Origin: Linyphia triangularis
Lineage: Eukaryota; Arthropoda; Arachnida; Araneae; Linyphiidae
Length of the DNA stretch: 64,000 nucleotides
Reading direction: 5' to 3'
NCBI GenBank assembly: GCA_963978545.1
Contig: OZ021721.1
Span: 109,403,366-109,467,365 of the forward strand
In this document: positions 6,831-59,161 of the stretch, piece after piece
How positions within the stretch are numbered: position 1 is the first letter of the stretch
How the letters are laid out: every line of letters starts with the position of its first letter
Notes under the pieces: generated by a model
The model's input: the letters and a program-made list of their open reading frames with translations, nothing else
Databases searched by the model: none
Told to the model about the DNA's origin: nothing
Translations under genes and position numbers: made by a program

Positions 6831-7660
6831 ACTTGATTGAATACATTGTCATCCACAACGGGTCTATCTGCCAAGTTTCATGTCGTTTGGATGATGGCAA
6901 GTGGGTTAATTACTCCTCCGAAGATTTTGCCTTGTCAAACTTAATAAGGGAAAGTTTCAGTCACTGAATATCGGCAAATTGTACATGCTAAAATTATTCT
7001 TGGTATTTGGATAATAGAACGTGAATAAAAGCTACTGTTAAGTCTCTTATGCCAGGCAATTGGTTGGTTGGTTGTTTTCAGATTATCTGGCACCGTCAGC
7101 AACACGAGGGCTATAATGCGCCGAAACATTCGTCATTAGACAAGCCAACATACATTTACAAACACCCATGCCTAACACGGGACTCGAACCCGCAACCTCG
7201 CGGTCTAGAAGCTAGCACGCTAACCACTACACCGTTTGGTCGGCGATGCCAGGCAATAAAAACGTATATAAAAAAGACCTTTTAGCGACAGTGTCAAAAC
7301 TTGATAGAAAACATTGTCAAAGACAATGAGCGTATAAGCCAAGCTTTTAAGTTTCAGTTTGATTGAATGAGGGGAAGTGGATTTATTGGTAATCCGAAGT
7401 GGCATTAGAAGCGTTTATAAAAGCGACTTTTTAGAAAACAATGTCATTGACATCGAATCTATCTGCCAAGTTTCAGGTCAGTTGGATGAAGACAAGTGTG
7501 TTAATTTGTCATCATAAATGATAATAGTAAAGTGGGTAAAAGCGGCTTTTTAATGATAGTGACAACAAAAGAATGCATTGTCATTGACAACAAACCAATC
7601 TGCAAAGTTTCAGCTCGATTGGATGATGGCAAATGGGCTAATTAGGGAAATGACGAATTG
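6831..7660. repeat. Diverged tandem repeats of about 130-140 bp
   Basis: A recurring phrase (CTGCCAAGTTTCA followed by a GTTTGGATGATGGCAAGTG-type segment) appears at about 6870, 7462 and 7600, with a weaker copy near 7335. The spacing is about 130-140 bp once the inserted SINE is discounted. Phrases like ACATTGTCATTGACAAC also recur. I read this as an old tandem repeat interrupted by SINE 7061-7245. The family is unknown to me. Confidence 0.6.
7061..7245 (-). mobile_element. SINE family 1, full length
   Basis: Complement of the SINE at 15610-15794. Reading on the minus strand there is a tRNA-like head (GCCGACCAAACGGTGTAGTG, B box GGTTCGAGTCC), a body with TGTTTCGGCGCATTATAGCC and a (CCAA)n-type tail. 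ATGCCAGGCAAT flanks it on both sides (7049-7060 and 7246-7257), a perfect 12-bp target duplication. The A-box and B-box layout is that of an RNA polymerase III promoter inherited from a tRNA. The copy inserted into the older tandem repeat around it. Confidence 0.95.
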
Positions 7661-11685: not shown

Positions 11686-12023
11686 ACATGACTTTTTAAA
11701 AATATACATCAAAACCATTCACAAAACATACTCCCCCCCCCCCCTCCGTTCTTTCTCATAACAATATATTTCTATTGAGGGCCTGAGAAACAAAAGGGGT
11801 CTAAGTGACTTTTCTTAACTTTTGAGAAAATACACTTAAAAGTTTCTTATTTATATTAAATGTGTATGAAAATTATTTGTTGTTCAAATACTAACATCTG
11901 GAATGAAGATATCACTAGTTTTTATAGAATTTAATATAAATAAGAAACTTTAAAGTGTATTTTCTCAAAAGTTAAGAAAAGACCTCTTTGCTTCTCTGCC
12001 TCTCAATTTCAAAACTTCCTATA
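11686..12023. other. Intergenic with a local inverted repeat
   Basis: AGAAACTTTAAAGTGTATTT-like and ACTTTTGAGAAAATACACTT-like stretches (about 11818-11855 and 11942-11980) are inverted copies of about 60 bp around a short loop. This is probably a small MITE or fold-back with ill-defined ends. A poly-C run lies at 11733-11744. Confidence 0.45.
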
Positions 12024-15609: not shown

Positions 15610-15794
15610 GCCGACCAAATGGTATAGTGGTTAGCGTGCTAGCTTCTAGACCGCGAGGTTGCGGGTTCGAGTCCCGTGTTGGCATGGGTGTTTGTAAATG
15701 TATGTTGGCTTGTCTAATGACGAATGTTTCGGCGCATTATAGCCCTCGTGTTGCTGACGGCGCCAGATAATCTGAAAACAACCAACCAACCAAC
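15610..15794 (+). mobile_element. SINE family 1, reference full-length copy
   Basis: The tRNA-derived head begins GCCGACCAAATGGTATAGTG, with the A-box region TAGTGGTTAGCGTG and a perfect B box GGTTCGAGTCC, giving a polymerase III promoter. The head is followed by a body with TGTTTGTAAATGTATGTTGG, TGTTTCGGCGCATTATAGCC and CTGACGGCGCCAGATAATCT, then a (CCAA)n tail. CAAAACTTCATAT flanks both sides (15597-15609 and 15795-15807), a 13-bp target duplication. Five copies in the window share this structure with clean duplications, so the family moves by a LINE's machinery. The LINE partner is not in the window. Confidence 0.96.
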
Positions 15795-24010: not shown

Positions 24011-24025
24011 CCTGTATACTTAAAG

Positions 24026-24205
24026 CCGGCCGAACGGTATAGTGGTTAGCGAGCTAGCTTTTATACAGCGAGGTTGTGGGTTCGAGTCTCGTATCAGGCA
24101 TGGGTGTTTGTAAATGTACGTTGGCTTGTCAAGTGGCAAATGTTTCAGCGCATTATAGCCCTTGTGTTGCTGACGGCGCCAGATAATCTGAAAACAACCA
24201 ACCAA
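24026..24205 (+). mobile_element. SINE family 1, full length
   Basis: The head GCCGGCCGAACGGTATAGTG-like start, B box GGTTCGAGTCT (one change from the canonical C), body and (CCAA)n tail match the family. CCTGTATACTTAAAG is present on both sides (24011-24025 and 24206-24220), a perfect 15-bp target duplication. Several changes against the other copies (TTTATACAGCGAGG in the anticodon arm, CAAGTGGCAAATGTTTCAGC in the body) make it a somewhat older or different subfamily member. Confidence 0.94.
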
Positions 24206-24220
24206 CCTGTATACTTAAAG

Positions 24221-30299: not shown

Positions 30300-31980
30300 T
30301 TACAGCTACTTCAACGTAAATATCGGTGATAGCGGCCGCCGTACGGGCGCAAGTCTCGGCAATTATATTAAACCAACAATCGGCAAAAATGCCCGTACCG
30401 GTACAGGCAAAATGCAGATTGTTGCCGAGATTCCGTGATTGTCAGACTTGTAAATCCCACAAAATTGTAATGCAGATTTGTATCGATCTCAGTAATGATT
30501 CAAAATTTCAATTAAAAGAAAAAGTCGAAATTCGCGTTTTAGTTGAACTGTACTATGTCCGACAGATGCAAACCTCTGCAATAACGTCAGTAACAATTAT
30601 TATTTTCGAGTAAGACGAAAATGAGTATCACACAGCAACGTAATAACGGCGATAACGCTCGCCATAATTACAGGAATAACTGCCATTTCATCAGCGTAAC
30701 GTTCTGCAAAATGGCTATAACATACCAATGTAAATAATTTCGATAGAGTCTAACATTAGAGAAAAATAAGGTGGGAGGGGATAATAATTCCATTGGTGGT
30801 TTGGGGAAGACTGAACGCATGCAGGTTCCATGATTGTCAGGAAATTTTAATCACCGCGGGATCAATGAGAAATGTGTGGGAGGAAAGTTGGTTGTTTTCA
30901 GATTATCTGGCGCCGTCAGCAAAACGAGGGCTATAATGAGCCGAAACATTCGTCATTTGACAAGCCAACATACATTTACAAACACCCATGCCATACGCGG
31001 GACTCGAACCCGCAACCTCCCGGTCTAGAAGCTAGCAAGCTAACCACTATACCGTTTGGTCGGCTGTGGGAGGAAAACTTTGATAGGTGGAAAAATAAGA
31101 AAAATTCACGAAAGCGGAAAGATCGGCAGAATCAATCACATCCCTGCATTAAGGCAACAATAGGCAAAAATGACCATCACACCAACGTAAATATCAACGC
31201 TAGCATCCAATATATCGATGGAAATCGCTAAAATAGACGCGATTGTATCGACGTCACAATCTACGAAATTGACAATCACAAGCGTAAATCTCGGCGATAT
31301 AGACAACTATTGAGGCGCAAACCTTAGAATAGTGATTAATAGGGACTAAAATGAACATCACAAGAATGTCAATCTCGGTGAAAGCTCCCTTCTTAGCAGC
31401 GAAAATCTCGGCAATAACAAGCTTAACATCAGAGTAACGTTCGGCGAAACTAACCACCACACACCATCATAAATAACAGCGATAGATGCTGGCAATCAGC
31501 AAGAAAAATGATCATTACATTACAAGTTTGGGGAAATCTGAAAGTATGTAGGTTCCTTGATTGTCAGACAAGCAAGTAAACCCAATGAAATTGTAATGCA
31601 GTTTTGAATCCGTCTCAGGAATGATGGAAATTTCAAAAAAAAAAAAAAAATGCTGAAATCTAAAAAAGCAGAACTGTACCATGGCTGACAGGTGCAATCT
31701 CTGAAATAGCGTCAGGGACACATCACGAAAATGAGCAGCATGCAAGAACGTGTATCTTGCCCTCTATAATCACGAAAATATCGGTCATTTTACAATCGTA
31801 ACGTTCAGAAAAATGACCATCAAATATCAACGTAAATAATGCCGATAGACTACTATAATATAAGAGAAAAATGAGGAAGAAATGTAGTCATTCCATCGGC
31901 GATTTGAGGCAAATCTGAAAGCAAGCAGGTTCAGTGATTGTCAGGAAATTTTATTGCGAAAAGTTACGTGGTCGGTCTTG
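30300..31980. repeat. Diverged internal tandem repeats of the TIR element
   Basis: A block ending in TGATTGTCAG recurs at about 30435, 30831, 31557 and 31935. Before it come phrases of the type GTAACGTTC...AACGTAAATAA...CGATAG and a GTTTGGGGAAATCTGAAAG-like segment. Neighbouring copies are about 380-400 bp apart, and the middle gap is about 540 bp after discounting the SINE, so spacing is irregular. Motifs CGTAAATATCGG and TCTCGGCAATAA recur inside units. The region is richer in GC and CpG than its surroundings, and none of its frames looks like a gene. Confidence 0.6.
30887..31064 (-). mobile_element. SINE family 1 nested in the TIR element
   Basis: Minus-strand copy with tRNA-like head (GCCGACCAAACGGTATAGTG), B box GGTTCGAGTCC and short CCAAC tail. 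TGTGGGAGGAAA stands on both sides (30875-30886 and 31065-31076), a perfect 12-bp target duplication. It post-dates the 3.1-kb TIR element into whose repeats it inserted. Confidence 0.95.
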
Positions 31981-32233: not shown

Positions 32234-32239
32234 CTGGTT
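32234..32239. repeat. Left target duplication of the palindrome (CTGGTT)
   Basis: CTGGTT touches the first base of the left arm. An identical CTGGTT touches the last base of the right arm at 47204-47209. Its first three bases are the end of the older TIR element and its last three belong to that element's own duplication. Confidence 0.85.
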
Positions 32240-32295
32240 AGTAGTTAGAAAAGGCCGATCCGAAGCCATGGCGCAGCGCGCAGAGGGATGAGGGA

Positions 32296-32400
32296 TGATG
32301 ACGTCACCGGAAGGGGGCGTGACCGGATATGACGTCACCAGAAGGGGCGTGGTCGGATATGACGTCACCGGAAGTCACGTGACCGGAAGTGGAGTGGAGT
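32296..32400. promoter_or_regulatory. Terminal CRE/ETS/E-box cluster, left arm
   Basis: Three copies of TGACGTCACCGGAAG or TGACGTCACCAGAAG fuse a perfect CRE/ATF palindrome to an ETS-type CCGGAAG core. They are interleaved with GC-box-like GGGGGCGTG and GGGGCGTGG and an E-box CACGTG in GTCACGTGACCGGAAG. CRE-ETS composites are typical of strong CpG-type promoters, and ATF sites occur in adenovirus early promoters near the genome end. Promoter function is inferred from motif density only; I see no TATA box or transcription start evidence. Confidence 0.6.
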
Positions 32401-32454
32401 TGTTTCCCTCCTGCTGCTGTTTTAGTTTCGGTTTCGTTATAAGCTGTTTGTGTA

Positions 32455-33110
32455 TGACGTCACAGTGGGTATGACGTCATAATGTGTTTTATATCAAAGT
32501 TTTGAGCGGTGGCAACACTTTTTAGTTTTTGTTTCCAGTTAAATGGGGTTGAGTTGTTCTAGGACTGCTTGTAAACGAATAAGTTAGAGTGATAGGCTTT
32601 TATTGAGTGACGTCACAATAGGTATGAGGTCATAATTTGTTTTATATCAAAGTTTTGAGCGGTGGCAACACTCTATAGTTTCGATGTACCTTTCAGATGG
32701 TGTTGAGTTGTTCTAGGGCTGCTTGTAAACGAATAAGTTAGAGTGATAGATATTTGTACTAGTGACGTCACAGTGGGTATGACGTCATAATGTGTTTTAT
32801 ATCAAAGTTTTGAGCGTTGGCAACACTTTTTAGTGTCGATTTACCTTTCAGGCGGAGTTGATGTTCTAGGGCTGCTTCTAAGTGAATAAGTTAGAGTTAT
32901 AGGCATTTTTGACTAGTGACGTCACAGTGGGTATGACGTCATTCATGATTTTACAAAATTTACTTTTAAGACGATGGCAGCAGTAGGAATATGATAAGTT
33001 TTAGGCGGGATGGAGTTGAGTTGTTCTAGGGCTACTTTTAAGTAAATAATTTAGAGTGATAGGCTGTTTTACCAGTGACGTCACAGTGTTAATGTAGTGG
33101 GGATGACGTC
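32455..33110. repeat. Five ~155-bp units with paired CRE sites, left arm
   Basis: Units begin at about 32455, 32608, 32763, 32917 and 33076, giving spacings of 153-159 bp. Most carry two CRE-like sites about 10 bp apart (GTGACGTCACAGTGGGTATG then ACGTCAT), followed by TTTTATATCAAAGTTTTGAG, CGGTGGCAACACT, GTTGAGTTGTTCTAGGGCTG and GAATAAGTTAGAGTGATAGG. The second unit has lost one site (TGAGGTCA) and the fourth lacks the ATATCAAAG segment. The spacing is near a nucleosome-plus-linker scale, but that link is speculation. Confidence 0.9.
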
Positions 33111-33169
33111 ACGATTTGCTTTATATCAAAGTTTAAGGAATGGCAACATCTTGTATCCTGATATAGCTA

Positions 33170-33260
33170 AGTCTCCTTTGATTGGTTGAAATAAAAGCTC
33201 ACTTCTGATTGGTTAGAATATGTCACGTGATTTCAAATGCTCTTCTCATTGACTATACAG
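33170..33260. promoter_or_regulatory. Inverted CCAAT pair and E-box, left arm
   Basis: GATTGGTTGA and GATTGGTTAG are two inverted CCAAT boxes about 28 bp apart, followed by CACGTG. Such spacing suits NF-Y-type binding, although the regulatory role is inferred from motifs only. The mirror lies at about 46183-46273. Confidence 0.4.
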
Positions 33261-34389
33261 TTTAGTAAGACAGTTTTCTACTAAGTTTAATGTAATTGCG
33301 GCGCCATCTAATGGTAGGAAGGAATATAAATTACATAGTTTATAACTTTTCATGCTTAACCATTAAAAACTTCAAATACATGCAAAGATAATATACTAAC
33401 ACAAATGCGTAAAGTTTCGGATTGAGTGGATTTTTTTTTTCTATAAGTGCTTAACACATTTAAACTAATGTTGAGAGATATAATCGCAAGACACTTTTAA
33501 GGAATCAGGTTTAATCAATGTTAGACACATAAAGTCTCATTATTTTCTCAATAACAGTATGAAATGTAAATATAAATTAAAATTTATGAGGAAAAAAAAA
33601 ATTTAAACTTTGATATCTTAACGTGAAAATTTCTTTTACAGAGCTTAACGTGTCATTAAAAAGTTTTTTTCTTTTATTGTCATAGTTTTTGAGGGATTGA
33701 ATACACAACAAAAGAACTTAGACTAGAATTAATTTTCAATATTCAGCAACTGAAACCCATTATGGAAGTTAAAGCAATGATTTTACAATTATTTTTAGGT
33801 TGAGTTAGTCTGACGCTGTTGAAGGAATTAGTAGTTGTAGTGTGTTCACACGTGAGTTTGCAATACAATATTAGTAATATACATTTCCAAAAAACGAAAT
33901 ATTTATCACTTTGAATAGAAAAATGACAATTTTTTTTTTATTTATGTAAGTATTATTCTCATTTTTGTAAATTTTAAATGTATTATCCATATTTTATTGA
34001 AGAATTTATATTTTTTTTTCTTCTTCTTTCAGAATGGTTTAGGAAAAACATTTCATTTTAGTCAGAACAATGTTTTCAAAGAGATGGAAATACGCAACTT
34101 TTCGATATATCAACCTTCAAATACTTTGAAATTGATTCTATTTGTTACAACCGGTTGTAATTTAAAGCTATACTGTACTATGCGAGCGATATTATATATC
34201 TTAGCTACTTACTGTCTATGTTAAAATTTATATTACCATTAAACTTGTTAGAAATTAATATGTCTATGTTAGTTATATTAATCAAGATAGTTTTTATTGT
34301 ACAATGATACTTACTTAAGTTGATGAATGGCAACACAGAAGTAGCTGCTAATGCTGAATAGATATGTGATAACTGATTTTGAATACTCT
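33261..34389. other. AT-rich arm interior
   Basis: No recognisable gene. A 75-codon frame (33997-34224, mirrored at 45218-45445) begins in a poly-T stretch and resembles nothing known. The phrase GCGGCGCCATCTAATGGTAG (33298-33317) is a small GC-rich exception. Confidence 0.35.
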
Positions 34390-35815
34390 AATGTTTAAAT
34401 AAGAGAGAAAAAGTAACATACTTGAACATCTTACAACTAAGAATTCAAAAGTGAACATGAAAATTTACTTTACGAATAAATATCATGTCTTTAAAATGTG
34501 TACGAATATCACTAAATAAGAGAAAAAAGTAACATACTTAAACTCTTTACGACAAATAACTTTAAAATTAACGAAAAAAAAAACTTACTTTACACATAAA
34601 AATCACTTTAAAATGTGTAAAAATATCGCTAAATAAGAGAAAAAAAAGTAACTTACTTAAAATTTCTAAGATAAATATTTAACCTTTACGCGAAAATTCC
34701 CTTCATGTATAAAAATCACGACTTTAAAATATAACATGCAAGAGAAAAGTAACGTACTTAAACTTTCTACGACAAATAACTTGAACATTAACGTAAAATT
34801 TTACTTTACAAATAAAAATCCCGATATTAAAATATGTAGAAATATCGCTAAATAAAAGAAAAAAAAGTAACACACTTAAACTTTGTACGACAAATAACTT
34901 TGACATTAACGTAAAAAATGTTCTTCACATATAAAAATCACGACTTTAAATTTAAAATGTAGGATGAAAGTATAACATACCTATAATTTCTACGACAAAG
35001 AATTCAAACATTGCCGTTCATGTCTTTAAAATGTATAATGACAACTCTAACTTTTAGAAAAAAGAAACACTAAAAATTTACAAGGCAAAGAATTTAAAAT
35101 TGAACGTTAAAATTAACTTTACATGTACTATCATACTCTTATATCAACGATAAATAAGATAAAAAAAAAAGAAACTCTAAAAATTTATAAGGCAAAGAAT
35201 TCAAATAATACGCGAAAATTTACCTCACATATAAAAATTATGTCTTTCAAATGTGTAAGAATAACGCTAAATTAGAGAAAAAGAAATATTAAAAATTTAT
35301 AAGGTAAGGAATTGAAACAATACGCGAAAATTTATTTCACACATAACATTTTTATCTTTAAAATGTGTAAGAATAATGCTAAATTAGAGAAGAAAAAAAA
35401 TAACATACTTAAACTTTCTTCGACAACAATTTAAACAATACGCGAAAATTTCATACACAATTATTTTCTTAGGTTAATGTTAAATAATGGGAAATTTAAC
35501 AGAATAAAAATTTCAAAGATAAAGAATTTTAACCTTTACACGAAAATTTACTTCACATATAAATATCATGTCTTTAAACTTTAACGTGACAATTTACTTC
35601 TCATATACAATTAAACTCTTAGGTTAATGTTAAATAAAAGAAAAAGTAACATACTCAAAAATTTCTAAGATAAGCATAACGTAAAAATTTCATATCATGT
35701 GTTTAAAATGTAACATATAAGAGAAAAAAAAATAACATACTTGAACTTTCTATAGCAAAGAATTTAAGCGTTAGCGTAAAAATTTACTTTACATATAAAA
35801 TTCACGTCTTTAAAC
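34390..35815. repeat. About 12 diverged ~115-bp repeats, left arm
   Basis: The unit reads roughly AATAAGAGAAAAAAGTAACA, TACTTAAACTTTCTACGACA, AATAACTT...ATTAACG, AAAATTTACTTTACATATAA, AAATCACGTCTTTAAAATGT. Unit starts fall near 34398, 34516, 34632, 34740, 34853, 35153, 35270, 35380, 35634 and 35719, with weaker copies between, so the period is about 110-118 bp. Copies differ much more from each other than the two arms do, so the array is far older than the palindrome. On the minus strand each unit has a TTTTTTCTCTTATTTAG stretch resembling a splice acceptor, probably by chance. Confidence 0.8.
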
Positions 35816-36075
35816 GGGATGATAAGCATGTGACGGTAATTAGACAATCAGGTTAGCGGTAGGTGATACGCCACTTGCCGGCATTTTTAGACCGGAGGAT
35901 GAGTCACGCTAAAACTTGTTCAAACAGGTCGGGAGACTTGTACAGCAAGAACAACAGCATCGACGCGCAAGCAGCGGGTGATGCTGCGGTGTGTCAGCAG
36001 GTCTTCGAGATTATCGTTTTCCTACTTTTCCTTTTTCATAATGAAATGTTTGTGAAAACTTGGAATGAATGAAGT
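35815..36075. other. GC-rich island of unknown role, left arm
   Basis: This is the only mixed-composition block in the inner arm. It includes GCGGTAGGTGATACGCCACT, GCCGGCATTTTTAGACCGG (a possible CCGG stem) and a run with GACGCGCAAGCAGCGGGTGA. A plus frame covers it (35863-36072). From its ATG at 35896 it reads MSHAKTCSNRSGDLYSKNN and on to a hydrophobic FEIIVFLLFLF end. The codons are more balanced than in neighbouring AT-rich frames, so a captured exon fragment or a structured RNA is possible. I recognise neither. Confidence 0.4.
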
Positions 36076-38389
36076 GGATTTCAAAGACACATTAGTAAGT
36101 GAAGGTAGAATTCGCATGGACTTTCTTCCAAAAAGTATGATTCACTTGGAGAATTTAAGATCATTTCTACTTGAAAACTTTTCTATTGTCTAAAACATTG
36201 AATATTGTTCAAACTCAGTGAGATTATATGCTACAATACGGGTAAAACTTAACAAAATTGTTACATAGAAGAAAAATAGTAAGAGATTTAAAATAAATAC
36301 TAGTTATAGATACTCCAAGGAAAAAAATTCACCTCTACTTTTCAATCGGAAAATCAATGCAAGTTGGAAATTTATGTTACTTCAAGAAAGACTTAGACAA
36401 TTTACTTTGTAATAATAATATACGTTAAGGTGTCGTATTAACTCGTGCAATACATGCTGACTAAGGTTTATTTTACTTATCTAAGAAAGGTGAATTGGGG
36501 GAAAATATTAAATAAATTGTAGATATTAAATACATTGTAGATATGCATTTAAGTTTTGAAAATCACCTGCAAGACTTTTAAAACATCTTAAGATAAATTG
36601 AAAGAAACTTGCGAATTATATGTAAACTATATAACTTTTTATACTCTGAAAGGAAATCACAAGTAATTTAGTTAACTTTTTTCATGGTAACACTCATATT
36701 CAACGACATGTTTTTAAAATTTAACCTTCTTTACATGATAATAGTTATAAATTTTTTCAATCTCAGATGCGATATACTATTATTTCTAACATATATGTTA
36801 CGAATTGTGTAAAGTTTTTAAAACTGTATATGCAAATCACCAATCAGAAACATAAAAATCTAACATCAATCAAACAAACTAAAATAATAAGATATTTTCC
36901 TTAGTGGAAATAGTTAACTACTCATGTGATGGAATATACTTAGAAAATTTAAATACTGAAAAAAGTTTGCTAGGCAAACTTAAAGAATATTTTTTTTCTT
37001 GTGAAAAACTAGCATAAATTTGGAAAATGTAGAGTTTGTTACTACGTAAAATTGAACATCATCTGGACAAACTAAATTATACATGAATTTTTTTTTTATT
37101 TGAGAGGTGCTGACAATATATCATCAATATAGAGATTTTTAACTTCCAACCATAATTTCTAAATAACTTATACATAAATTTCAGAAAAACTGAAACGGAA
37201 TGTGTTTTACAAGAGGCTTATTTTGTAAGATGAATATTCAATATTAATATAACTGAGCATCCTAACAAGTTCATTCCGGAAAAAACTTGTAAAAGATACT
37301 TATATTTTGAAAATAGTTTGAAATATCCTTTTAAATTTATGAATGCTCGCTTTCGAAAGACACAAATAAAACTGATATTACTCATGATAATTAACACATA
37401 CATAACATTAGTCAAACAAAGTGAAATTTTTATAGCTTGTGACCGATAACTTGTCAGTGAAGCAGAACTTACATAGGAAATTTGTGCAAACTTTTTCAAC
37501 TTTTAAACCAAGTATCATGTAAAATTATAAATTACGATAGGAAATAGCATACTTCAGAATCGGAACAAGTCTTGTAGTTAAGCTAAATGTATTTCTCAAG
37601 GAATTGAAAGCATACCAGAGAAGTCCTTATCATTTCGTATCTTTTCTCATGTTGCAAGAAGACATACTTTGTAAAAGATCGTCTTAGCACTTAACAAAAA
37701 TCAGTAAAAATAAATATATTTTCTATGGCAAAGATAAAACTTCACAACTTAATTACTTAAATTTAGCTAAGTTGCATATGGTTTATTCACATAACTCGCA
37801 TGTGCTTTGAATGTTGAAATATATTTGTCAGTTGAAATCAAACTCATCGAAAATAAATGCTATCTACATTTTCAAGTCGGAAATTACTATTAAATAAACT
37901 TTACATGTAAGACATTATCATGTTAAAAAGAAAAATCTACAAAAATGTAAATGATAATTTTACTGTTGGTACATAAATGATGAATAATTTATGATTTTAT
38001 TCTAGGCAAACGTTTTATTGTCTAACAGAGAACTTAAACTTTAGCAGAAAAACGAAAAAATATAATTTTTATATCCTATCATGCTTGCCGAAAATTGAAT
38101 TTATTAGCTGTTGTAATAGATTTCTATTGTCCAAATTTCTATAGTTCTTCCCAGTGCAATAATATTAAGTTCATGTGTAATGAGTAGGTTTTTTTTTTTT
38201 GTTGAATCTTATAAATTTAATGAAATTATTATGACCTAAGAGATTGAGTGAACTGAATAAATCAATGACGTAAATTTAAACAGTGACTTGAACTGTAAAG
38301 AAGTATGACAAAGTGATAGATGAAGTGAAAATAGAAGTTGAGTGAAATGTGTTGAAAAAAGTTGAAGACTACAAGAAATTCATAAATGA
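36076..38389. other. AT-rich arm interior
   Basis: Unique-looking AT-rich sequence with no gene call. A minus frame of 93 codons (37218-37499) lacks a recognisable domain. It is mirrored without visible change in the right arm. Confidence 0.4.
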
Positions 38390-38485
38390 GAATTATCATT
38401 GACTTATATTAACTTCGTTTTTCTTGCTTATGACAAGAAAATACACTCTTGTTTATTAAGAACCAACTTGATATCTTATCATAGA

Positions 38486-38800
38486 ATGACAATGATGAAA
38501 TATCTATACATTAAAAAAAAAATACCAAACTTAGACATAGCAAATTTCTTGAAATTCATGTATAATGTGAGAAGTTTTACTGGAAATATAGAAGATACAA
38601 CATTGAAAGATGTGAATGTTTCGAAGTACTTTATCAGAAATAAAAAAAAAAAAAATGCGCTGAGGTCCGCTATAAAAATTTTTAGGAGAAAGTTTAAACA
38701 AAATTTAAAATCAAACATGCTTTTAAGTGGGAACACATATATTAAAACTATAGTACATTTAACAATTTATATTATGTCATCTCAGTTGGTATCAAACTGA
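38486..38800 (+). other. Lysine-rich 104-codon open frame, unproven
   Basis: Starting from the first in-frame ATG (38486), the frame encodes a basic, asparagine- and lysine-rich product with a KKKKNALRSAIKIFRRKF stretch. The KKKK stretch comes from a 13-A run (38643-38655), which makes real translation doubtful. No family is recognised. It is mirrored at 40642-40956 on the minus strand. It is the longest frame in the palindrome, which is why I list it. I lean towards chance. Confidence 0.2.
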
Positions 38801-39685
38801 ATAATATGAAAAACAACCACAAACTGAATAAACATGAAAATTATCAATATATGTGGAAAAGTTTCCTTTTTTCACATATAAAAAAAAAAAATAACACATT
38901 GACATACGTTAAGATCACGAAACATGCGTAATCATATACCGATAAGAGCAACCAATGTTGCGGGGAGATATTCACGTGATGGACAATATCCCCTGAATAA
39001 ATTGAGTGATTTAATTTCTAATGCTAATTCCAATAGTATTCCATGTAACTTCAACTTTATATGTTACACTATAGATATATTTATTTTTCAAATATATTGA
39101 CTTTCGAAAAATCATCTTTCAATATAAGAATGATCATAGTAAGAATAAAAGAAAAGATACTAAGCATTGATTTAAAGTGTATTTATTTCAACTTAGCAAC
39201 AAATCATATGCGTGAAACGAAAATTGCCTCGAACCAAAGTATAACTATCCAATTTCATTGATTCCTACAAGGAAATTTTTCTCATCTAGTAATTGATTTT
39301 TTTTTCTCTCGTACACATTATAAGTGTTGTCCAATCAGGTGTAGAGTAGCTGAAGATATCCGACCTCTTTCTAAATATTAATAAGTCACTGTTGAAAAAC
39401 TTATAAAAATTTCAATTTACACTTAAAGTTTTTTTATATATATATATTTCAAAGAATTTTTTCAAATCAATATGTATATTTAAATACTGAAACTTATTCA
39501 CTTCAATAAATGTATGTTTAAGTTATAAAACTTGTCGTATGTATTGAAAAATTGTAACTTTTCGTCTTATTCGTATAAATCGTTAACTTATACACTAGTT
39601 CTTCATCAATTAATCTTCTAAGTAAATCTTTCAAAGGTAAAAACATACCTATAGCTTTGCATTTGTAACAAGTTAAATTGTACAT

Positions 39686-39757
39686 GTTTCATGTGAAAGT
39701 TACAAAATTTTATATATTTTCATGAAAAACATATAAAATTTTAATTTCACGAGAAAC
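39686..39757. repeat. Palindrome centre with slight asymmetry
   Basis: Perfect pairing ends at about 39690/39753. Inside, TGTGAAAGTTACAAAATTTT on the left faces AAAATTTTAATTTCACG on the right, a few bases different. The innermost bases TTTTCATGAAAA (39717-39728) are again a palindrome. The spacer is therefore close to zero, with a small asymmetric patch around it. Confidence 0.85.
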
Positions 39758-42700
39758 ATGTACAATTTAACTTGTTACAAATGTAAAGCTATAGGTATGT
39801 TTTTACCTTTGAAAGATTTACTTAGAAGATTAATTGATGAAGAACTAGTGTATAAGTTATCGATTTATACGAATAAGACGAAAAGTTACAATTTTTCAAT
39901 ACATACGACAAGTTTTATAACTTAAACATACATTTATTGAAGTGAATAAGTTTCAGTATTTAAATATACATATTGATTTGAAAAAATTCTTTGAAATATA
40001 TATATATAAAAAAACTTTAAGTGTAAATTGAAATTTTTATAAGTTTTTCAACAGTGACTTATTAATATTTAGAAAGAGGTCGGATATCTTCAGCTACTCT
40101 ACACCTGATTGGACAACACTTATAATGTGTACGAGAGAAAAAAAATCAATTACTAGATGAGAAAAATTTCCTTGTAGGAATCAATGAAATTGGATAGTTA
40201 TACTTTGGTTCGAGGCAATTTTCGTTTCACGCATATGATTTGTTGCTAAGTTGAAATAAATACACTTTAAATCAATGCTTAGTATCTTTTCTTTTATTCT
40301 TACTATGATCATTCTTATATTGAAAGATGATTTTTCGAAAGTCAATATATTTGAAAAATAAATATATCTATAGTGTAACATATAAAGTTGAAGTTACATG
40401 GAATACTATTGGAATTAGCATTAGAAATTAAATCACTCAATTTATTCATGGGATATTGTCCATCACGTGAATATCTCCCCGCAACATTGGTTGCTCTTAT
40501 CGGTATATGATTACGCATGTTTCGTGATCTTAACGTATGTCAATGTGTTATTTTTTTTTTTTATATGTGAAAAAAGGAAACTTTTCCACATATATTGATA
40601 ATTTTCATGTTTATTCAGTTTGTGGTTGTTTTTCATATTATTCAGTTTGATACCAACTGAGATGACATAATATAAATTGTTAAATGTACTATAGTTTTAA
40701 TATATGTGTTCCCACTTAAAAGCATGTTTGATTTTAAATTTTGTTTAAACTTTCTCCTAAAAATTTTTATAGCGGACCTCAGCGCATTTTTTTTTTTTTT
40801 ATTTCTGATAAAGTACTTCGAAACATTCACATCTTTCAATGTTGTATCTTCTATATTTCCAGTAAAACTTCTCACATTATACATGAATTTCAAGAAATTT
40901 GCTATGTCTAAGTTTGGTATTTTTTTTTTAATGTATAGATATTTCATCATTGTCATTCTATGATAAGATATCAAGTTGGTTCTTAATAAACAAGAGTGTA
41001 TTTTCTTGTCATAAGCAAGAAAAACGAAGTTAATATAAGTCAATGATAATTCTCATTTATGAATTTCTTGTAGTCTTCAACTTTTTTCAACACATTTCAC
41101 TCAACTTCTATTTTCACTTCATCTATCACTTTGTCATACTTCTTTACAGTTCAAGTCACTGTTTAAATTTACGTCATTGATTTATTCAGTTCACTCAATC
41201 TCTTAGGTCATAATAATTTCATTAAATTTATAAGATTCAACAAAAAAAAAAAACCTACTCATTACACATGAACTTAATATTATTGCACTGGGAAGAACTA
41301 TAGAAATTTGGACAATAGAAATCTATTACAACAGCTAATAAATTCAATTTTCGGCAAGCATGATAGGATATAAAAATTATATTTTTTCGTTTTTCTGCTA
41401 AAGTTTAAGTTCTCTGTTAGACAATAAAACGTTTGCCTAGAATAAAATCATAAATTATTCATCATTTATGTACCAACAGTAAAATTATCATTTACATTTT
41501 TGTAGATTTTTCTTTTTAACATGATAATGTCTTACATGTAAAGTTTATTTAATAGTAATTTCCGACTTGAAAATGTAGATAGCATTTATTTTCGATGAGT
41601 TTGATTTCAACTGACAAATATATTTCAACATTCAAAGCACATGCGAGTTATGTGAATAAACCATATGCAACTTAGCTAAATTTAAGTAATTAAGTTGTGA
41701 AGTTTTATCTTTGCCATAGAAAATATATTTATTTTTACTGATTTTTGTTAAGTGCTAAGACGATCTTTTACAAAGTATGTCTTCTTGCAACATGAGAAAA
41801 GATACGAAATGATAAGGACTTCTCTGGTATGCTTTCAATTCCTTGAGAAATACATTTAGCTTAACTACAAGACTTGTTCCGATTCTGAAGTATGCTATTT
41901 CCTATCGTAATTTATAATTTTACATGATACTTGGTTTAAAAGTTGAAAAAGTTTGCACAAATTTCCTATGTAAGTTCTGCTTCACTGACAAGTTATCGGT
42001 CACAAGCTATAAAAATTTCACTTTGTTTGACTAATGTTATGTATGTGTTAATTATCATGAGTAATATCAGTTTTATTTGTGTCTTTCGAAAGCGAGCATT
42101 CATAAATTTAAAAGGATATTTCAAACTATTTTCAAAATATAAGTATCTTTTACAAGTTTTTTCCGGAATGAACTTGTTAGGATGCTCAGTTATATTAATA
42201 TTGAATATTCATCTTACAAAATAAGCCTCTTGTAAAACACATTCCGTTTCAGTTTTTCTGAAATTTATGTATAAGTTATTTAGAAATTATGGTTGGAAGT
42301 TAAAAATCTCTATATTGATGATATATTGTCAGCACCTCTCAAATAAAAAAAAAATTCATGTATAATTTAGTTTGTCCAGATGATGTTCAATTTTACGTAG
42401 TAACAAACTCTACATTTTCCAAATTTATGCTAGTTTTTCACAAGAAAAAAAATATTCTTTAAGTTTGCCTAGCAAACTTTTTTCAGTATTTAAATTTTCT
42501 AAGTATATTCCATCACATGAGTAGTTAACTATTTCCACTAAGGAAAATATCTTATTATTTTAGTTTGTTTGATTGATGTTAGATTTTTATGTTTCTGATT
42601 GGTGATTTGCATATACAGTTTTAAAAACTTTACACAATTCGTAACATATATGTTAGAAATAATAGTATATCGCATCTGAGATTGAAAAAATTTATAACTA

Positions 42701-43366
42701 TTATCATGTAAAGAAGGTTAAATTTTAAAAACATGTCGTTGAATATGAGTGTTACCATGAAAAAAGTTAACTAAATTACTTGTGATTTCCTTTCAGAGTA
42801 TAAAAAGTTATATAGTTTACATATAATTCGCAAGTTTCTTTCAATTTATCTTAAGATGTTTTAAAAGTCTTGCAGGTGATTTTCAAAACTTAAATGCATA
42901 TCTACAATGTATTTAATATCTACAATTTATTTAATATTTTCCCCCAATTCACCTTTCTTAGATAAGTAAAATAAACCTTAGTCAGCATGTATTGCACGAG
43001 TTAATACGACACCTTAACGTATATTATTATTACAAAGTAAATTGTCTAAGTCTTTCTTGAAGTAACATAAATTTCCAACTTGCATTGATTTTCCGATTGA
43101 AAAGTAGAGGTGAATTTTTTTCCTTGGAGTATCTATAACTAGTATTTATTTTAAATCTCTTACTATTTTTCTTCTATGTAACAATTTTGTTAAGTTTTAC
43201 CCGTATTGTAGCATATAATCTCACTGAGTTTGAACAATATTCAATGTTTTAGACAATAGAAAAGTTTTCAAGTAGAAATGATCTTAAATTCTCCAAGTGA
43301 ATCATACTTTTTGGAAGAAAGTCCATGCGAATTCTACCTTCACTTACTAATGTGTCTTTGAAATCC

Positions 43367-43628
43367 ACTTCATTCATTCCAAGTTTTCACAAACATTTCA
43401 TTATGAAAAAGGAAAAGTAGGAAAACGATAATCTCGAAGACCTGCTGACACACCGCAGCATCACCCGCTGCTTGCGCGTCGATGCTGTTGTTCTTGCTGT
43501 ACAAGTCTCCCGACCTGTTTGAACAAGTTTTAGCGTGACTCATCCTCCGGTCTAAAAATGCCGGCAAGTGGCGTATCACCTACCGCTAACCTGATTGTCT
43601 AATTACCGTCACATGCTTATCATCCCGT
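43367..43628. other. GC-rich island, mirror copy
   Basis: Reverse complement of the island at 35815-36075, including the frame (43370-43579, minus). No difference from the left copy was noticed. Confidence 0.4.
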
Positions 43629-45053
43629 TTAAAGACGTGAATTTTATATGTAAAGTAAATTTTTACGCTAACGCTTAAATTCTTTGCTATAGAAAGTTCA
43701 AGTATGTTATTTTTTTTTCTCTTATATGTTACATTTTAAACACATGATATGAAATTTTTACGTTATGCTTATCTTAGAAATTTTTGAGTATGTTACTTTT
43801 TCTTTTATTTAACATTAACCTAAGAGTTTAATTGTATATGAGAAGTAAATTGTCACGTTAAAGTTTAAAGACATGATATTTATATGTGAAGTAAATTTTC
43901 GTGTAAAGGTTAAAATTCTTTATCTTTGAAATTTTTATTCTGTTAAATTTCCCATTATTTAACATTAACCTAAGAAAATAATTGTGTATGAAATTTTCGC
44001 GTATTGTTTAAATTGTTGTCGAAGAAAGTTTAAGTATGTTATTTTTTTTCTTCTCTAATTTAGCATTATTCTTACACATTTTAAAGATAAAAATGTTATG
44101 TGTGAAATAAATTTTCGCGTATTGTTTCAATTCCTTACCTTATAAATTTTTAATATTTCTTTTTCTCTAATTTAGCGTTATTCTTACACATTTGAAAGAC
44201 ATAATTTTTATATGTGAGGTAAATTTTCGCGTATTATTTGAATTCTTTGCCTTATAAATTTTTAGAGTTTCTTTTTTTTTTATCTTATTTATCGTTGATA
44301 TAAGAGTATGATAGTACATGTAAAGTTAATTTTAACGTTCAATTTTAAATTCTTTGCCTTGTAAATTTTTAGTGTTTCTTTTTTCTAAAAGTTAGAGTTG
44401 TCATTATACATTTTAAAGACATGAACGGCAATGTTTGAATTCTTTGTCGTAGAAATTATAGGTATGTTATACTTTCATCCTACATTTTAAATTTAAAGTC
44501 GTGATTTTTATATGTGAAGAACATTTTTTACGTTAATGTCAAAGTTATTTGTCGTACAAAGTTTAAGTGTGTTACTTTTTTTTCTTTTATTTAGCGATAT
44601 TTCTACATATTTTAATATCGGGATTTTTATTTGTAAAGTAAAATTTTACGTTAATGTTCAAGTTATTTGTCGTAGAAAGTTTAAGTACGTTACTTTTCTC
44701 TTGCATGTTATATTTTAAAGTCGTGATTTTTATACATGAAGGGAATTTTCGCGTAAAGGTTAAATATTTATCTTAGAAATTTTAAGTAAGTTACTTTTTT
44801 TTCTCTTATTTAGCGATATTTTTACACATTTTAAAGTGATTTTTATGTGTAAAGTAAGTTTTTTTTTTCGTTAATTTTAAAGTTATTTGTCGTAAAGAGT
44901 TTAAGTATGTTACTTTTTTCTCTTATTTAGTGATATTCGTACACATTTTAAAGACATGATATTTATTCGTAAAGTAAATTTTCATGTTCACTTTTGAATT
45001 CTTAGTTGTAAGATGTTCAAGTATGTTACTTTTTCTCTCTTATTTAAACATTA
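43628..45053. repeat. About 12 diverged ~115-bp repeats, mirror copy
   Basis: Reverse complement of the array at 34390-35815, unit for unit. That every degenerate copy matches its mirror partner shows the arms were duplicated as a block after the array had diverged. Confidence 0.8.
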
Positions 45054-46332
45054 GAGTATTCAAAATCAGTTATCACATATCTATTCAGCATTAGCAGCTA
45101 CTTCTGTGTTGCCATTCATCAACTTAAGTAAGTATCATTGTACAATAAAAACTATCTTGATTAATATAACTAACATAGACATATTAATTTCTAACAAGTT
45201 TAATGGTAATATAAATTTTAACATAGACAGTAAGTAGCTAAGATATATAATATCGCTCGCATAGTACAGTATAGCTTTAAATTACAACCGGTTGTAACAA
45301 ATAGAATCAATTTCAAAGTATTTGAAGGTTGATATATCGAAAAGTTGCGTATTTCCATCTCTTTGAAAACATTGTTCTGACTAAAATGAAATGTTTTTCC
45401 TAAACCATTCTGAAAGAAGAAGAAAAAAAAATATAAATTCTTCAATAAAATATGGATAATACATTTAAAATTTACAAAAATGAGAATAATACTTACATAA
45501 ATAAAAAAAAAATTGTCATTTTTCTATTCAAAGTGATAAATATTTCGTTTTTTGGAAATGTATATTACTAATATTGTATTGCAAACTCACGTGTGAACAC
45601 ACTACAACTACTAATTCCTTCAACAGCGTCAGACTAACTCAACCTAAAAATAATTGTAAAATCATTGCTTTAACTTCCATAATGGGTTTCAGTTGCTGAA
45701 TATTGAAAATTAATTCTAGTCTAAGTTCTTTTGTTGTGTATTCAATCCCTCAAAAACTATGACAATAAAAGAAAAAAACTTTTTAATGACACGTTAAGCT
45801 CTGTAAAAGAAATTTTCACGTTAAGATATCAAAGTTTAAATTTTTTTTTTCCTCATAAATTTTAATTTATATTTACATTTCATACTGTTATTGAGAAAAT
45901 AATGAGACTTTATGTGTCTAACATTGATTAAACCTGATTCCTTAAAAGTGTCTTGCGATTATATCTCTCAACATTAGTTTAAATGTGTTAAGCACTTATA
46001 GAAAAAAAAAAATCCACTCAATCCGAAACTTTACGCATTTGTGTTAGTATATTATCTTTGCATGTATTTGAAGTTTTTAATGGTTAAGCATGAAAAGTTA
46101 TAAACTATGTAATTTATATTCCTTCCTACCATTAGATGGCGCCGCAATTACATTAAACTTAGTAGAAAACTGTCTTACTAAACTGTATAGTCAATGAGAA
46201 GAGCATTTGAAATCACGTGACATATTCTAACCAATCAGAAGTGAGCTTTTATTTCAACCAATCAAAGGAGACTTAGCTATATCAGGATACAAGATGTTGC
46301 CATTCCTTAAACTTTGATATAAAGCAAATCGT

Positions 46333-47147
46333 GACGTCATCCCCACTACATTAACACTGTGACGTCACTGGTAAAACAGCCTATCACTCTAAATTATTTA
46401 CTTAAAAGTAGCCCTAGAACAACTCAACTCCATCCCGCCTAAAACTTATCATATTCCTACTGCTGCCATCGTCTTAAAAGTAAATTTTGTAAAATCATGA
46501 ATGACGTCATACCCACTGTGACGTCACTAGTCAAAAATGCCTATAACTCTAACTTATTCACTTAGAAGCAGCCCTAGAACATCAACTCCGCCTGAAAGGT
46601 AAATCGACACTAAAAAGTGTTGCCAACGCTCAAAACTTTGATATAAAACACATTATGACGTCATACCCACTGTGACGTCACTAGTACAAATATCTATCAC
46701 TCTAACTTATTCGTTTACAAGCAGCCCTAGAACAACTCAACACCATCTGAAAGGTACATCGAAACTATAGAGTGTTGCCACCGCTCAAAACTTTGATATA
46801 AAACAAATTATGACCTCATACCTATTGTGACGTCACTCAATAAAAGCCTATCACTCTAACTTATTCGTTTACAAGCAGTCCTAGAACAACTCAACCCCAT
46901 TTAACTGGAAACAAAAACTAAAAAGTGTTGCCACCGCTCAAAACTTTGATATAAAACACATTATGACGTCATACCCACTGTGACGTCATACACAAACAGC
47001 TTATAACGAAACCGAAACTAAAACAGCAGCAGGAGGGAAACAACTCCACTCCACTTCCGGTCACGTGACTTCCGGTGACGTCATATCCGACCACGCCCCT
47101 TCTGGTGACGTCATATCCGGTCACGCCCCCTTCCGGTGACGTCATCA
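46333..47147. promoter_or_regulatory. CRE-rich terminal region, mirror copy
   Basis: Mirror of 32296-33110: five paired-CRE units followed outward by the CRE/ETS cluster (CTTCCGGTGACGTCATAT-type sites) and the CACGTG box. Both ends of the insertion thus carry the same promoter-like block, each about 60 bp from the terminus. Confidence 0.6.
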
Positions 47148-47203
47148 TCCCTCATCCCTCTGCGCGCTGCGCCATGGCTTCGGATCGGCCTTTTCTAACT
47201 ACT

Positions 47204-47209
47204 CTGGTT
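47204..47209. repeat. Right target duplication of the palindrome (CTGGTT)
   Basis: Identical to 32234-32239 and immediately outside the right arm. The following CAAC completes GTTCAAC, the right duplication of the older 3.1-kb element. Confidence 0.85.
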
Positions 47210-47357
47210 CAACGACCTATACTTATGCACAATATCGGCTAATCAGTCCGGGACCTACAGCTCAACGTGGATTCCGAACCACAACGAATATCGATGCCTA
47301 ATCCAGGATTCGAACCTGGCACCTTTGGTATGCACTAACCACACGGCCATCATGCCA
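47207..47357 (-). mobile_element. SINE family 2, main part of the split copy
   Basis: On the minus strand the head reads ATGGCCGTGTGGTTAGTGCA, then a B box GGTTCGAATCC, then ATTCGTTGTGGTTCGGAATC, CACGTTGAGCTGTAGGTCCC and GGTCGTTGAAC. The order matches the copies at 56068 and 58986. The tail is missing here and is found at 29091-29113 beyond the two insertions. It is tRNA-derived with a polymerase III-type promoter, and distinct in body sequence from SINE family 1. Confidence 0.85.
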
Positions 47358-53838: not shown

Positions 53839-54196
53839 AAAAAATAATTAATAGTTTATAAAACTAAAAAACACGCTTTAATAGAAAAGTGAACTAAAAA
53901 ATAGAAAATAATTTTAAATAAGTTTGAAATAAGAATAGAGTGATTAACAAGAAATATTTATTTTATCGTAAAAAAGCGTGGGGTGCTTGATGTCAATTGT
54001 TGTATATATATTGGTAAAAGTAGAGCCATTATGAAAATATCTTAAAAAGCACCCCACGCTTTTTTACGATAAAATAAATATTTCTTGTTAATCATTTCTA
54101 TTCTTATTTCAAACTTATTTAAAATTATTTTCTACTTTTTAGTTCCCTTTTCTATTAAAGCGTGTTTTTTAGTTTTATAAACTATTAATTATTTTT
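53839..54196. repeat. Fold-back with 149-bp near-perfect arms
   Basis: The arm 53839-53987 is the inverse of 54048-54196, with a loop of 60 bp. I see only a few mismatches (for example GTGAAC against GGGAAC). The outer arms contain AACACGCTTTAATAG, a variant of the motif in the repeat to the left, and the inner ends contain AAGCGTGGGGTGC. It may be the end structure of the same repeat. It would form a long stable RNA hairpin if transcribed. Confidence 0.92.
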
Positions 54197-55818: not shown

Positions 55819-56499
55819 CACGGTGACTCAAAATAGAGTGACGGCTTTCAAAAATGAATAAATAGGGGGAAAAAAAGGAAAAAACTTAAAACGATAAGAG
55901 AATTTTATCCTATCAATTTTTTTAAATAATTACAAATTTCACCAACAAACGGTGCGGCTGATTAAAAAACTTTTTTAAAAAATGGTCTGAATGAATGTAT
56001 TGCACAAATTACAAAACAATATTTTCAAAATAACCATCATTTCCACAACAACATAACGCAATTGAACCCATCTGATGGATGTGTGGTTAGCGCTCAGGCC
56101 ACGTATGGCAAAGGTGCCGGGTTCGAATCCTGGATTAGCCATGGATGTTCGTTGTGATTCGGAATCCACGTTAAGCTGTAAGTCCCGGCCTGATTAGCTG
56201 CCATTGTGCATAAAAATAGGTCATTGAGCGTATAAACCAACCAAGTATGACGCAAATGAAACATCGTTTAGTAGTTTTTCCGACATGTTTCATTCCGTTT
56301 CCCGCACCCTCTCTTTTTTCATTCATCAGCACCATCTGTTGGTGATCTTTATAACTATTTTGTAAAATTTATGTATAAAATTCAGTAATTGACCATATAG
56401 AATGCAACAAACGGCACACTTCACCGTTTTCATTTGTCTTTATAATAATTATTATTTTTATTCATTTTTGAAAATCATCAGTCCATTTTGGAGCACACT
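55819..56499. mobile_element. Mariner-like TIR element holding a SINE
   Basis: The left end (after TA) reads CACGGTGACTCAAAATAGAG then TGACGGCTTTCAAAAATGAA. The complement of the right end reads AGTGTGCTCCAAAATGGACT then GATGATTTTCAAAAATGAAT. They are diverged inverted termini of the type found at 56551 (ACAAGGTGTCCCAAAATGGA), which is a third, lone end of the same family. No transposase is visible. A SINE family 2 copy is nested inside. Confidence 0.6.
56068..56246 (+). mobile_element. SINE family 2, best copy
   Basis: The tRNA-like head reads GATGGATGTGTGGTTAGCGC with a perfect B box GGTTCGAATCC. The body has GTTCGTTGTGATTCGGAATC, CCACGTTAAGCTGTAAGTCC and TCATTGAGCGTATAAACCAA, with a short CCAA tail. 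Near-duplicate flanks ATAACGCAATTGAAC (56053-56067) and ATGACGCAAATGAAAC (56247-56262) look like a worn target duplication. The head may derive from the same tRNA class as SINE family 1, but the bodies differ. Confidence 0.88.
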
Positions 56500-56501
56500 T
56501 A

Positions 56502-56914
56502 CACTCTAAATACAAAATAATTAAGAAACTATTTGCATTTCAGTACTCATACAAGGTGTCCCAAAATGGACTGACGATTTTCAACAGTTGAAATGATAAT
56601 ACTTCACGCATTAAATGCTTGAGATCAAATGCTTTAATACAAACTACTCATCATAAAAGCATGAGTCAATTTTTGAAAGTTACCAACGATCTTTCTTTGC
56701 TGTTTATGTGTAAAATGGCTTCTGGTATGACTCTTAGCGTCACAGCTGCCCCTATTTTTACAAATTACTTTATTACTTTCTCCATCTATTTATTCTATTC
56801 GTATTTGATTTTTACTTTTTTTTTTTATGTTCTTTTGCTCTGATCTTCTTCAACAAAGCTTGAAATTAAGGACGAATTATTTTTTGTCGCATTTTAGATT
56901 TATTTTTACAAGAG
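56502..56914. other. Intergenic, with a lone mariner-like end at 56551
   Basis: TACAAGGTGTCCCAAAATGG (56550-56569) is a terminus of the family above without a partner. The 74-codon frame (56619-56843) has no domain I know. Confidence 0.4.
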
Positions 56915-57616
56915 AAAACTCCATCAATACGGTCATAGAAAGATCTGTACAGTTTATGTAACATCAAGTTGCTTCAAATTATGGGAATATTTAAATAAAC
57001 AATGTCACATGGGCATAAAATATATATAACATTTTCCCTTATTTAGGTCAACACATAAATGTGAAAATGATTTGATAATCAACCAGCAGAAAACTCCAGC
57101 AATACGGTCATAGAAAGATCTGTACAGTTTATGTAACATCAAGTTACTTCAAAGTTATGGGAATATTTAAATAAACAATGTCACATGGGCATAAAATATA
57201 TATAACATTTTCCCTTATTTTTGTCAACACATAAATATGAAAATGATTTGATAATCAACCAGCAGAAAACTCCAGCAATACGGTCATAGAAAGATCTGTA
57301 CAGTTTATGTAACATCAAGTTGCTTCAAAGTTATGGGAATATTTAAATAAACGATGTCACATGGGCATAAAATATCTATAACATTTCCCCTTATTTATGT
57401 CAACACTAAAATGTGAAAATGATTTGATAATCAACCAGCAGAAAACTCCAGCAATACGGTCATAGAAAGATCTGTACAGTTTATGTAACATCAAGTTGCT
57501 TCAAAGTTATGGGAATATTTAAATAAACAATGTCACATGGACATAAAATGTATAGAAAATTTTCCCTTATTTATGTCAACACATAAATGTGAAAATGATT
57601 TGACAATCAACCAGCT
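56915..57616. repeat. Four-copy 176-bp tandem array
   Basis: Units start at 56915, 57090, 57266 and 57442 with AAAACTCCAGCAATACGG (CCATCAATACGG in the first), at intervals of 175-176 bp. All share AGATCTGTACAGTTTATGTA, CATCAAGTTGCTTCAAA and CAATGTCACATGGGCATAAA. Differences are a handful of bases per unit. The array looks like a young minisatellite or satellite island of unknown family. Confidence 0.95.
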
Positions 57617-58985: not shown

Positions 58986-59161
58986 CTGATGGCAATGGGG
59001 TTAGCACTCTGGCCTCGCATGCCAAAGGTGTCGCGTTCGATTCCTGGATTAAGCATTGATCTTCGTTGTGGTTCTAAATCCACGTTAAGCTGCTGGTCCC
59101 CGTCTGATTAACCGTTATTGAGCAAAAAACTGGTCGTTAAGCGTACAAAGCAACCAACCAA
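58986..59161 (+). mobile_element. SINE family 2 nested in the left arm
   Basis: Worn copy: head GATGGCAATGGGGTTAGCAC, B box altered to CGTTCGATTCC, body with CTTCGTTGTGGTTCTAAATC and CCACGTTAAGCTGCTGGTCC, tail AACCAACC. The uninterrupted right arm of the host element (about 62810-62850) shows the pre-insertion site, where TTGCAAAAGAATG stands in place of the SINE. The 60-codon frame 58929-59111 crosses this junction and is not a gene. Confidence 0.85.

Follow-up and report, generated by a model that had tools for sequence, protein, structure and literature searches.

A Multicopy, Non-Coding Palindrome with Maverick Ends in the Spider Linyphia triangularis, Probably a Satellite Moved in Trans

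The window analysed here is a stretch of 64,000 nucleotides of the Linyphia triangularis genome (C14:109403366-109467365), and it contains, at positions 32240..47203, a palindromic element of 14,964 bp. Over 447 aa, the COX1 encoded by mitochondrial contig C369 of this genome shows 100% identity to that of L. triangularis, compared to 91% for the next match listed, which fits this species or a very close relative. All structures described in this work were read from assembled sequence (genome 1.35 Gb, 369 contigs). The left arm of the element (32240..39720, + strand) is followed by a 5-nt loop (39721-39725) and by the right arm (39726..47203, − strand), which is an inverted copy of the left. 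When the arms, each of about 7.48 kb, were aligned, it was found that 7,473 of 7,485 columns were identical and that pairing spanned the whole stretch. Seven of the 12 differing columns were located at 39691-39716 (opposite 39729-39752) and two more no further than about 140 bp from the centre (39583 and 39659), the others being a substitution at 38993 and homopolymer-length differences at 33430 and 39297. The probability of finding at least nine of 12 differences in the inner 140 bp was 6e-14 under independence of columns, a value that is indicative only, the 140-bp zone having been picked post hoc and adjacent columns not being independent. At the centre, a hairpin containing the 5-nt loop and a few bulges forms a 62-bp imperfect, asymmetric tip (39691..39752) that is kept in other copies. 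A sequence-only reading of this DNA had described two 7.48-kb arms pairing almost base for base with no spacer; the pairing was borne out, and the absence of a spacer holds nearly but not exactly, given the loop within the tip.

The hexamer CTGGTT lies directly outside each end of the element (32234..32239 and 47204..47209), exactly where the same reading had placed the limit of pairing, and the sequence beyond it differs between the left and right sides. A read fold-back would not produce such a pattern. The termini of the element are AGTAGTTAG...CTAACTACT, i.e., (AGT)2//(ACT)2.

The outer part of the left arm (32240..33087, + strand), which starts with AGTAGTTAGAAA, shares homology with the terminal inverted repeat found in gene-bearing Maverick/Polinton elements (hereafter Mavericks) of the same genome, and the same repeat is found at the right end (46356..47203, − strand). 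It contains a 153-bp tandem repeat array (32455..33088, + strand), and 12 TGACGTCA sites are located at 32299..33111. Inward of this part, the arm consists of A+T-rich filler with 26% G+C (33088..39690, + strand), in which there are tandem repeats with a period of 112-219 bp (34396..35399, + strand); the G+C content was 42% in the outer 871 bp of the arm compared to 26% in the remainder (33111-39690). The longest frame of the arm (38390-38797) has 136 codons, a length reached by 2 of 200 simulated sequences. It was found to be interrupted in 17 of the 17 other arms that had a match (20 arms were examined and three had none), these 17 deriving from ten copies and hence not being independent, and a hidden gene was rejected on that basis. 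A Pfam scan of five of the 14 arm frames of at least 60 codons gave nothing above cut-off, weak matches of two frames (E 0.031 and 0.045) being set aside, and searches for RNA families and tRNAs found none. The polymerase, integrase, ATPase, and capsid coding sequences expected of a Maverick are lacking in the window element, as is a unique coding centre flanked by short terminal repeats, the arms here being 7.48 kb long. The window element is non-coding.

Palindromy is the standard form of the family to which this element belongs. A probe taken from the centre matched on both strands across the centre in 40 of 40 scored cases. These were the highest-ranking of 1,062 candidates and included the window element; the ranking favours palindromes because the probe is itself palindromic. 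Ten copies, taken from the 14 other end pairs first listed, were compared as halves, and in nine of them the best arm-to-arm stretch was 99.4-99.8% identical over 5.0-8.0 kb. The tenth, a rearranged 29-kb copy (L011/L012), had an outer arm of 3.3 kb at 99.3% and another 4.3 kb at 93.5%. One-sided losses close to the centre occur, for example of about 1.6 kb in L023/L024. In a test that is independent of palindromy, ten further pairs of 14.0-15.3 kb were chosen by their order in the list, and a 500-bp sample was read 3 kb inward of either end. All ten were mirrored, nine of them at 99.4-100% identity over 471-500 bp; the samples of the tenth pair overlap by just 42 bp, and both align to the window arm in mirrored orientation.

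The insertion scars were evaluated in 26 palindromes (the window element and groups of ten, ten, and five), and exact 6-bp duplications were found in 23 of the 23 with both ends located. Excluded were L015/L016, for which the outer end motif was not found, and L037/L038 and L047/L048, each with one end not found. Palindromy of the second ten and of four of the last five was judged from centre or interior probe matches together with inverted ends rather than from whole arms. The sequence-only reading had proposed that the whole palindrome was mobilized as a unit and had asked whether further copies sharing its ends show palindromy and a 6-bp duplication. The exact duplications of the 22 palindromes other than the window element and the ten mirrored pairs of standard length support this proposal; the Maverick identity of the ends was not part of that reading.

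The end motif AGTAGTTAGAAANNG occurred 1,014 + 1,002 times in the genome compared to 55 + 55 times for a reversed control, and the variant AGTAGTTAGAAANTAGG occurred 167 + 163 times compared to 0 + 1, giving 2,346 occurrences of both motifs together compared to 111 in the controls. With the background subtracted, some 2,230 ends remain, which by our estimate correspond to about 1,100 elements, counting all kinds of element that share these ends. A scan of viral contigs for the end pattern gave 0 matches. Positions were listed in two sets of 100 places, on which the pair statistics rest. Same-variant pairing within 50 kb gave 41 pairs in the first set, with a median of 14.6 kb and 22 pairs at 14.0-15.3 kb, and 40 of 40 adjacent plus/minus pairs closer than 30 kb shared their variant compared to 25% expected. 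In the second set there were 42 adjacent pairs closer than 50 kb, with a median of 14.9 kb and 23 pairs at 14.0-15.3 kb. Over end bases 13-28, a mean of 5.0 of 16 positions differed between elements, whereas the two ends of a given element differed at a mean of 0.31. The first 28 bases were alike at both ends in 21 of 26 elements, with a one-base difference in four and a four-base difference in one. The palindrome L043/L044, the two ends of which have different variants with four differences, is an exception to the rule.

In vertebrates, according to the Maverick account in PMC8097293, AGTAGT...ACTACT ends with 6-bp duplications are the commonest form, sizes range from 12.7 to 24.6 kb, and the terminal repeats of intact elements are 46-1,447 bp long. 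Matches to the viral-type polymerase family PF03175 number at least 60 in the present genome (91 of 810 candidates scored). One copy, C2:49887599-49902471 (14,873 bp), is a clear Maverick with a polymerase (1.1e-17), an integrase with a chromodomain, and weak matches to an ATPase and an adenovirus core protein that are below cut-offs; its terminal repeat is 171 bp long (97.1%), its ends are AGTAGT, and its duplication is AACAAC. This copy was rejected as a helper and is a relative only, its terminal sequence past AGTAGT being unlike that of the window element.

Twelve end pairs of odd length were sampled. At least one arm-like sample was found in nine, in four of which the midpoint was not arm-like. 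The midpoint of a 21-kb end pair (L061) contains a frame that resembles a retroelement by eye and is probably a later insertion into a palindrome. The three pairs with no arm-like sample, the candidate helpers, are copies of 16.6 kb (C1:70236713-70253340), 4.9 kb (C1:34917796-34922665), and 23.3 kb (C1:68482133-68505440), and all three carry the end motif of the window element and exact duplications. Two gene pieces were recognized in the short stretches read of the 16.6-kb copy. One is from a polymerase: its identity to the C2 polymerase is 46%, and it matches PF03175 at E 9.5e-4, which falls below the curated cut-off. The other is from an integrase, with 39% identity to the C2 Maverick and a match to rve at 1e-8, which passes the cut-off. 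The sequence at the mirror position of this polymerase piece is unrelated to it, and therefore the copy is not palindromic at that place. The 4.9-kb copy has a polymerase piece that is 41% identical to the C2 polymerase, with no Pfam match, and pieces of the 23.3-kb copy match the polymerase-bearing palindromes described below at 94-96%.

The terminal repeat of the 16.6-kb copy (1-842) aligns with bases 1-848 of the window arm at 84.7% identity. The best matches of the 16.6-, 4.9-, and 23.3-kb copies all begin at arm base 1 and stop at 848, 613, and 559, respectively, and the 23.3-kb copy has one out-of-register tandem match (72.5%) that reaches arm base 1,071. The first five of the 12 TGACGTCA sites are found at 59, 90, 120, 215, and 232 in the 16.6-kb copy and the window element alike; their spacing differs in the 4.9-kb and 23.3-kb copies. 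The two ends of the gene-bearing copies match each other in two of three cases (97.4 and 99.4%), the third being rearranged with a best stretch of 90.5%.

A second class of palindrome carries polymerase DNA. One of the ten listed pairs, C1:40088849-40103265, was 100% mirrored and unrelated to the window filler. It consists of Maverick polymerase DNA that shares 94-97% identity with pieces of the 16.6- and 23.3-kb copies; compared with the C2 polymerase at two places, its frames have identities of 43 and 28%, and PF03175 was matched by one of three frames (5.9e-4, below cut-off). When its two halves were sampled at the ends and at 1.5, 3, 4.5, and 6 kb, they were 100% identical in mirrored orientation at every place, and there are 567 unpaired bases at the centre, which together are what a snap-back would leave. 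Of 385 candidates for a 501-bp probe from this element, 40 were scored, every one of them with an identity of 99-100%, and this class has therefore probably spread recently. Sixteen of the 40 form eight mirrored pairs, the other 24 being without a partner among those scored, and in the five of these eight pairs that were examined at their ends, five of five had exact duplications. Polymerase palindromes with 99-100% identical probed interiors bear different end variants; some process would appear to renew the ends and then to transfer the change to the opposite end.

The relationship between the arms of different copies was evaluated in a 4.1-kb segment that excludes the inner 2.5 kb of the arm. 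In a tree of this segment, the left and right arms were sisters in ten of the ten copies with both arms, and the divergence was 0-0.47% within copies compared to 0.34-2.57% between copies (E2, with an incomplete right arm segment, was excluded from these two tests). Substitutions private to one copy sit in both of its arms in 122 cases compared to 54 in one arm only. There were 62 arm-to-arm differences, 54 of them private to one arm, as expected from mutation after insertion. At the centre, a 166-bp tip alignment of nine copies (E4 was not entered and E7 is partial, so that both are outside the count) had seven distinct rows in two groups, the differences of which are mirrored across the stem. 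Five pairs were changed on both sides, and 15 cells compared to 6.5 in shuffles (reached in 0 of 500) and 0-1 in slid controls; the covariation score also exceeded that of the shuffles (0 of 500). The mirrored subfamily changes extend to pair 41/124 of the alignment, 83 bases apart. The inner asymmetric tip is near-invariant, with variation in columns 52-113 at 64, 69, 86, and 108 only. By arm distances, the window element and E5 group with E1, E2, E6, E7, and E8, whereas by the tip they group with E3, E9, and E10; this disagreement indicates that copies have also recombined.

On our best reading, the window element is a Maverick satellite that is palindromic and non-autonomous. More fully, we propose with a probability of about 0.7 that it belongs to a multicopy family of non-coding full palindromes with Maverick ends, and that it is moved in trans by a Maverick polymerase and integrase by way of a single-strand hairpin. 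Instability is expected of large perfect palindromes, and we know of no direct experiment on Maverick replication. A related system is adenovirus panhandle replication, with its defective palindromic genomes, in which synthesis proceeds by protein-primed strand displacement and the terminal repeats pair on the displaced strand; in the route proposed here, pairing would instead span the whole strand. Protein-primed synthesis would displace one strand of the palindrome, the halves of which would pair along their full length into a hairpin of 7.5 kb closed by a small loop. The arms would be made identical again through mismatch repair or through copying along this hairpin, priming by terminal protein at the double-stranded end thus restored would rebuild the duplex, and the Maverick integrase would insert it. 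Such a route would explain the arm identity, the spared tip, the mirrored changes near the tip, and the matched ends. A Maverick strand that snapped back and then copied half of its own element may have given rise to the first palindromes, an origin that the polymerase-bearing class suggests. A broader proposal, to which we would give slightly less than even odds, is that palindromy is the genome plan of one Maverick lineage: complete elements and both polymerase-carrying and empty palindromes would share ends, and the palindromes would replicate as terminal-protein-primed full-length hairpins, the arms proofreading each other in every cycle.

Several observations weigh against the satellite reading. 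Both alleles of eight of the 62 arm-to-arm differences are present in other copies. The count of tip pairs changed on both sides does not exceed that of the shuffles (257 of 500 reach it), and the tip covariation is essentially one two-group split among seven distinct rows and may reflect few events. One of the 42 adjacent pairs of the second 100 places has unlike variants at its ends, and one of 26 elements (nc_F8, four differences) has clearly different ends. No link was detected between the filler of the window element and Maverick genes, and the candidate helpers are represented by gene pieces rather than a full gene set. The hairpin DNA, the terminal protein, and transposition are steps that we infer rather than observe, and there is also a rival in which the arms are matched by gene conversion in place.

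According to this rival, which we regard as unlikely, the arms convert each other in the chromosome after insertion, as in the large palindromes of Y chromosomes, and replication involves no hairpin. It would account for arms that match within copies and differ between them, for the asymmetry retained by the tip, which is the hardest place to pair, and for the position of all three arm substitutions of the window element outside the tip, at most 730 bp from the centre. However, the 54 differences private to one arm have the appearance of unrepaired mutation after insertion, differences were found in every quarter of the 4.1-kb segment (unevenly: 17, 24, 9, and 12 from outer to inner), and the mirrored changes reach pairs 83 bases apart. 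The matching ends in two of three gene-bearing copies also argue against it, although conversion could yield that as well.

An ordinary foldback or MITE-type (miniature inverted-repeat transposable element) cut-and-paste element with no Maverick kinship is very improbable. The window element does have the long inverted repeats with internal tandem repeats that define foldback elements and that are described for Tetris (PMC4079207), yet its ends are those of a Maverick: the (AGT)2 termini, the uniform 6-bp duplications, and the terminal repeat common to polymerase- and integrase-bearing copies argue against such an origin. An assembly or library fold-back, a known artefact form as which perfect palindromes are often dismissed and one that bears on structures read from an assembly, is barely credible here and was rejected on the unlike flanks, the exact duplications in 23 of 23 palindromes, and the copy-specific substitutions that sit in both arms.

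Among known systems, the window element resembles Mavericks in its 6-bp duplication, its (AGT)2//(ACT)2 ends, its length of about 15 kb, and the homology of its outer 850 bp or so to the repeat of a gene-bearing copy. It differs in that conserved genes were not found in it and that its inverted repeat is the whole element, with 7.48-kb arms compared to the 46-1,447 bp given for vertebrate Mavericks (PMC8097293). The snapback genomes of adeno-associated virus are the closest working analogue that we found, and foldback elements such as Tetris the closest in form. As described in PMC8235507, the former are snapback forms made from part of the viral genome, one class having part of the replication gene and another the capsid region; they are packaged subgenomic parvovirus particles, whereas here there are many germ-line insertions on Maverick ends and a large non-coding class. 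Tetris is likewise apparently non-autonomous, with tandem repeats inside its terminal inverted repeats, but its description in PMC4079207 names no tie to Mavericks, and the likeness is one of description, not of compared termini or duplications. No palindromic Maverick was found in listings of open-licence papers; subscription journals or repeat databases may hold one.

Other repeats were observed in the window and genome. Directly to the right of the insertion, at 47209-47330, there is a SINE-like (short interspersed nuclear element) repeat with a tRNA-like promoter box by eye, also present at 56109-56227 and 59017-59127; ARAGORN found no tRNA in the SINE-like repeat of the window. A repeat of about 140-180 bp has five window copies (3442-3582, 7060-7244, 15610-15793, 24024-24207, and 30887-31064), tandem units of about 176 bp are located at 56913-57615, and MITE-like short self-complementary repeats are located at 53840-54196 (357 bp) and 11809-11981 (173 bp). 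A COX1-like stretch on a large contig (C4:56130191-56131126) is likely a nuclear copy of mitochondrial DNA.

Taken together, these results describe very many large palindromes with clean insertion scars in one genome, in which paired substitutions record the mode of copying. By a rough estimate (end counts multiplied by 15 kb), elements with these ends make up about 1% of the genome. If transcribed, each palindrome would give a 7.5-kb hairpin RNA, which may bear on silencing. The palindromes offer a natural test of Maverick replication, and concerted evolution may be built into every cycle of their transposition.

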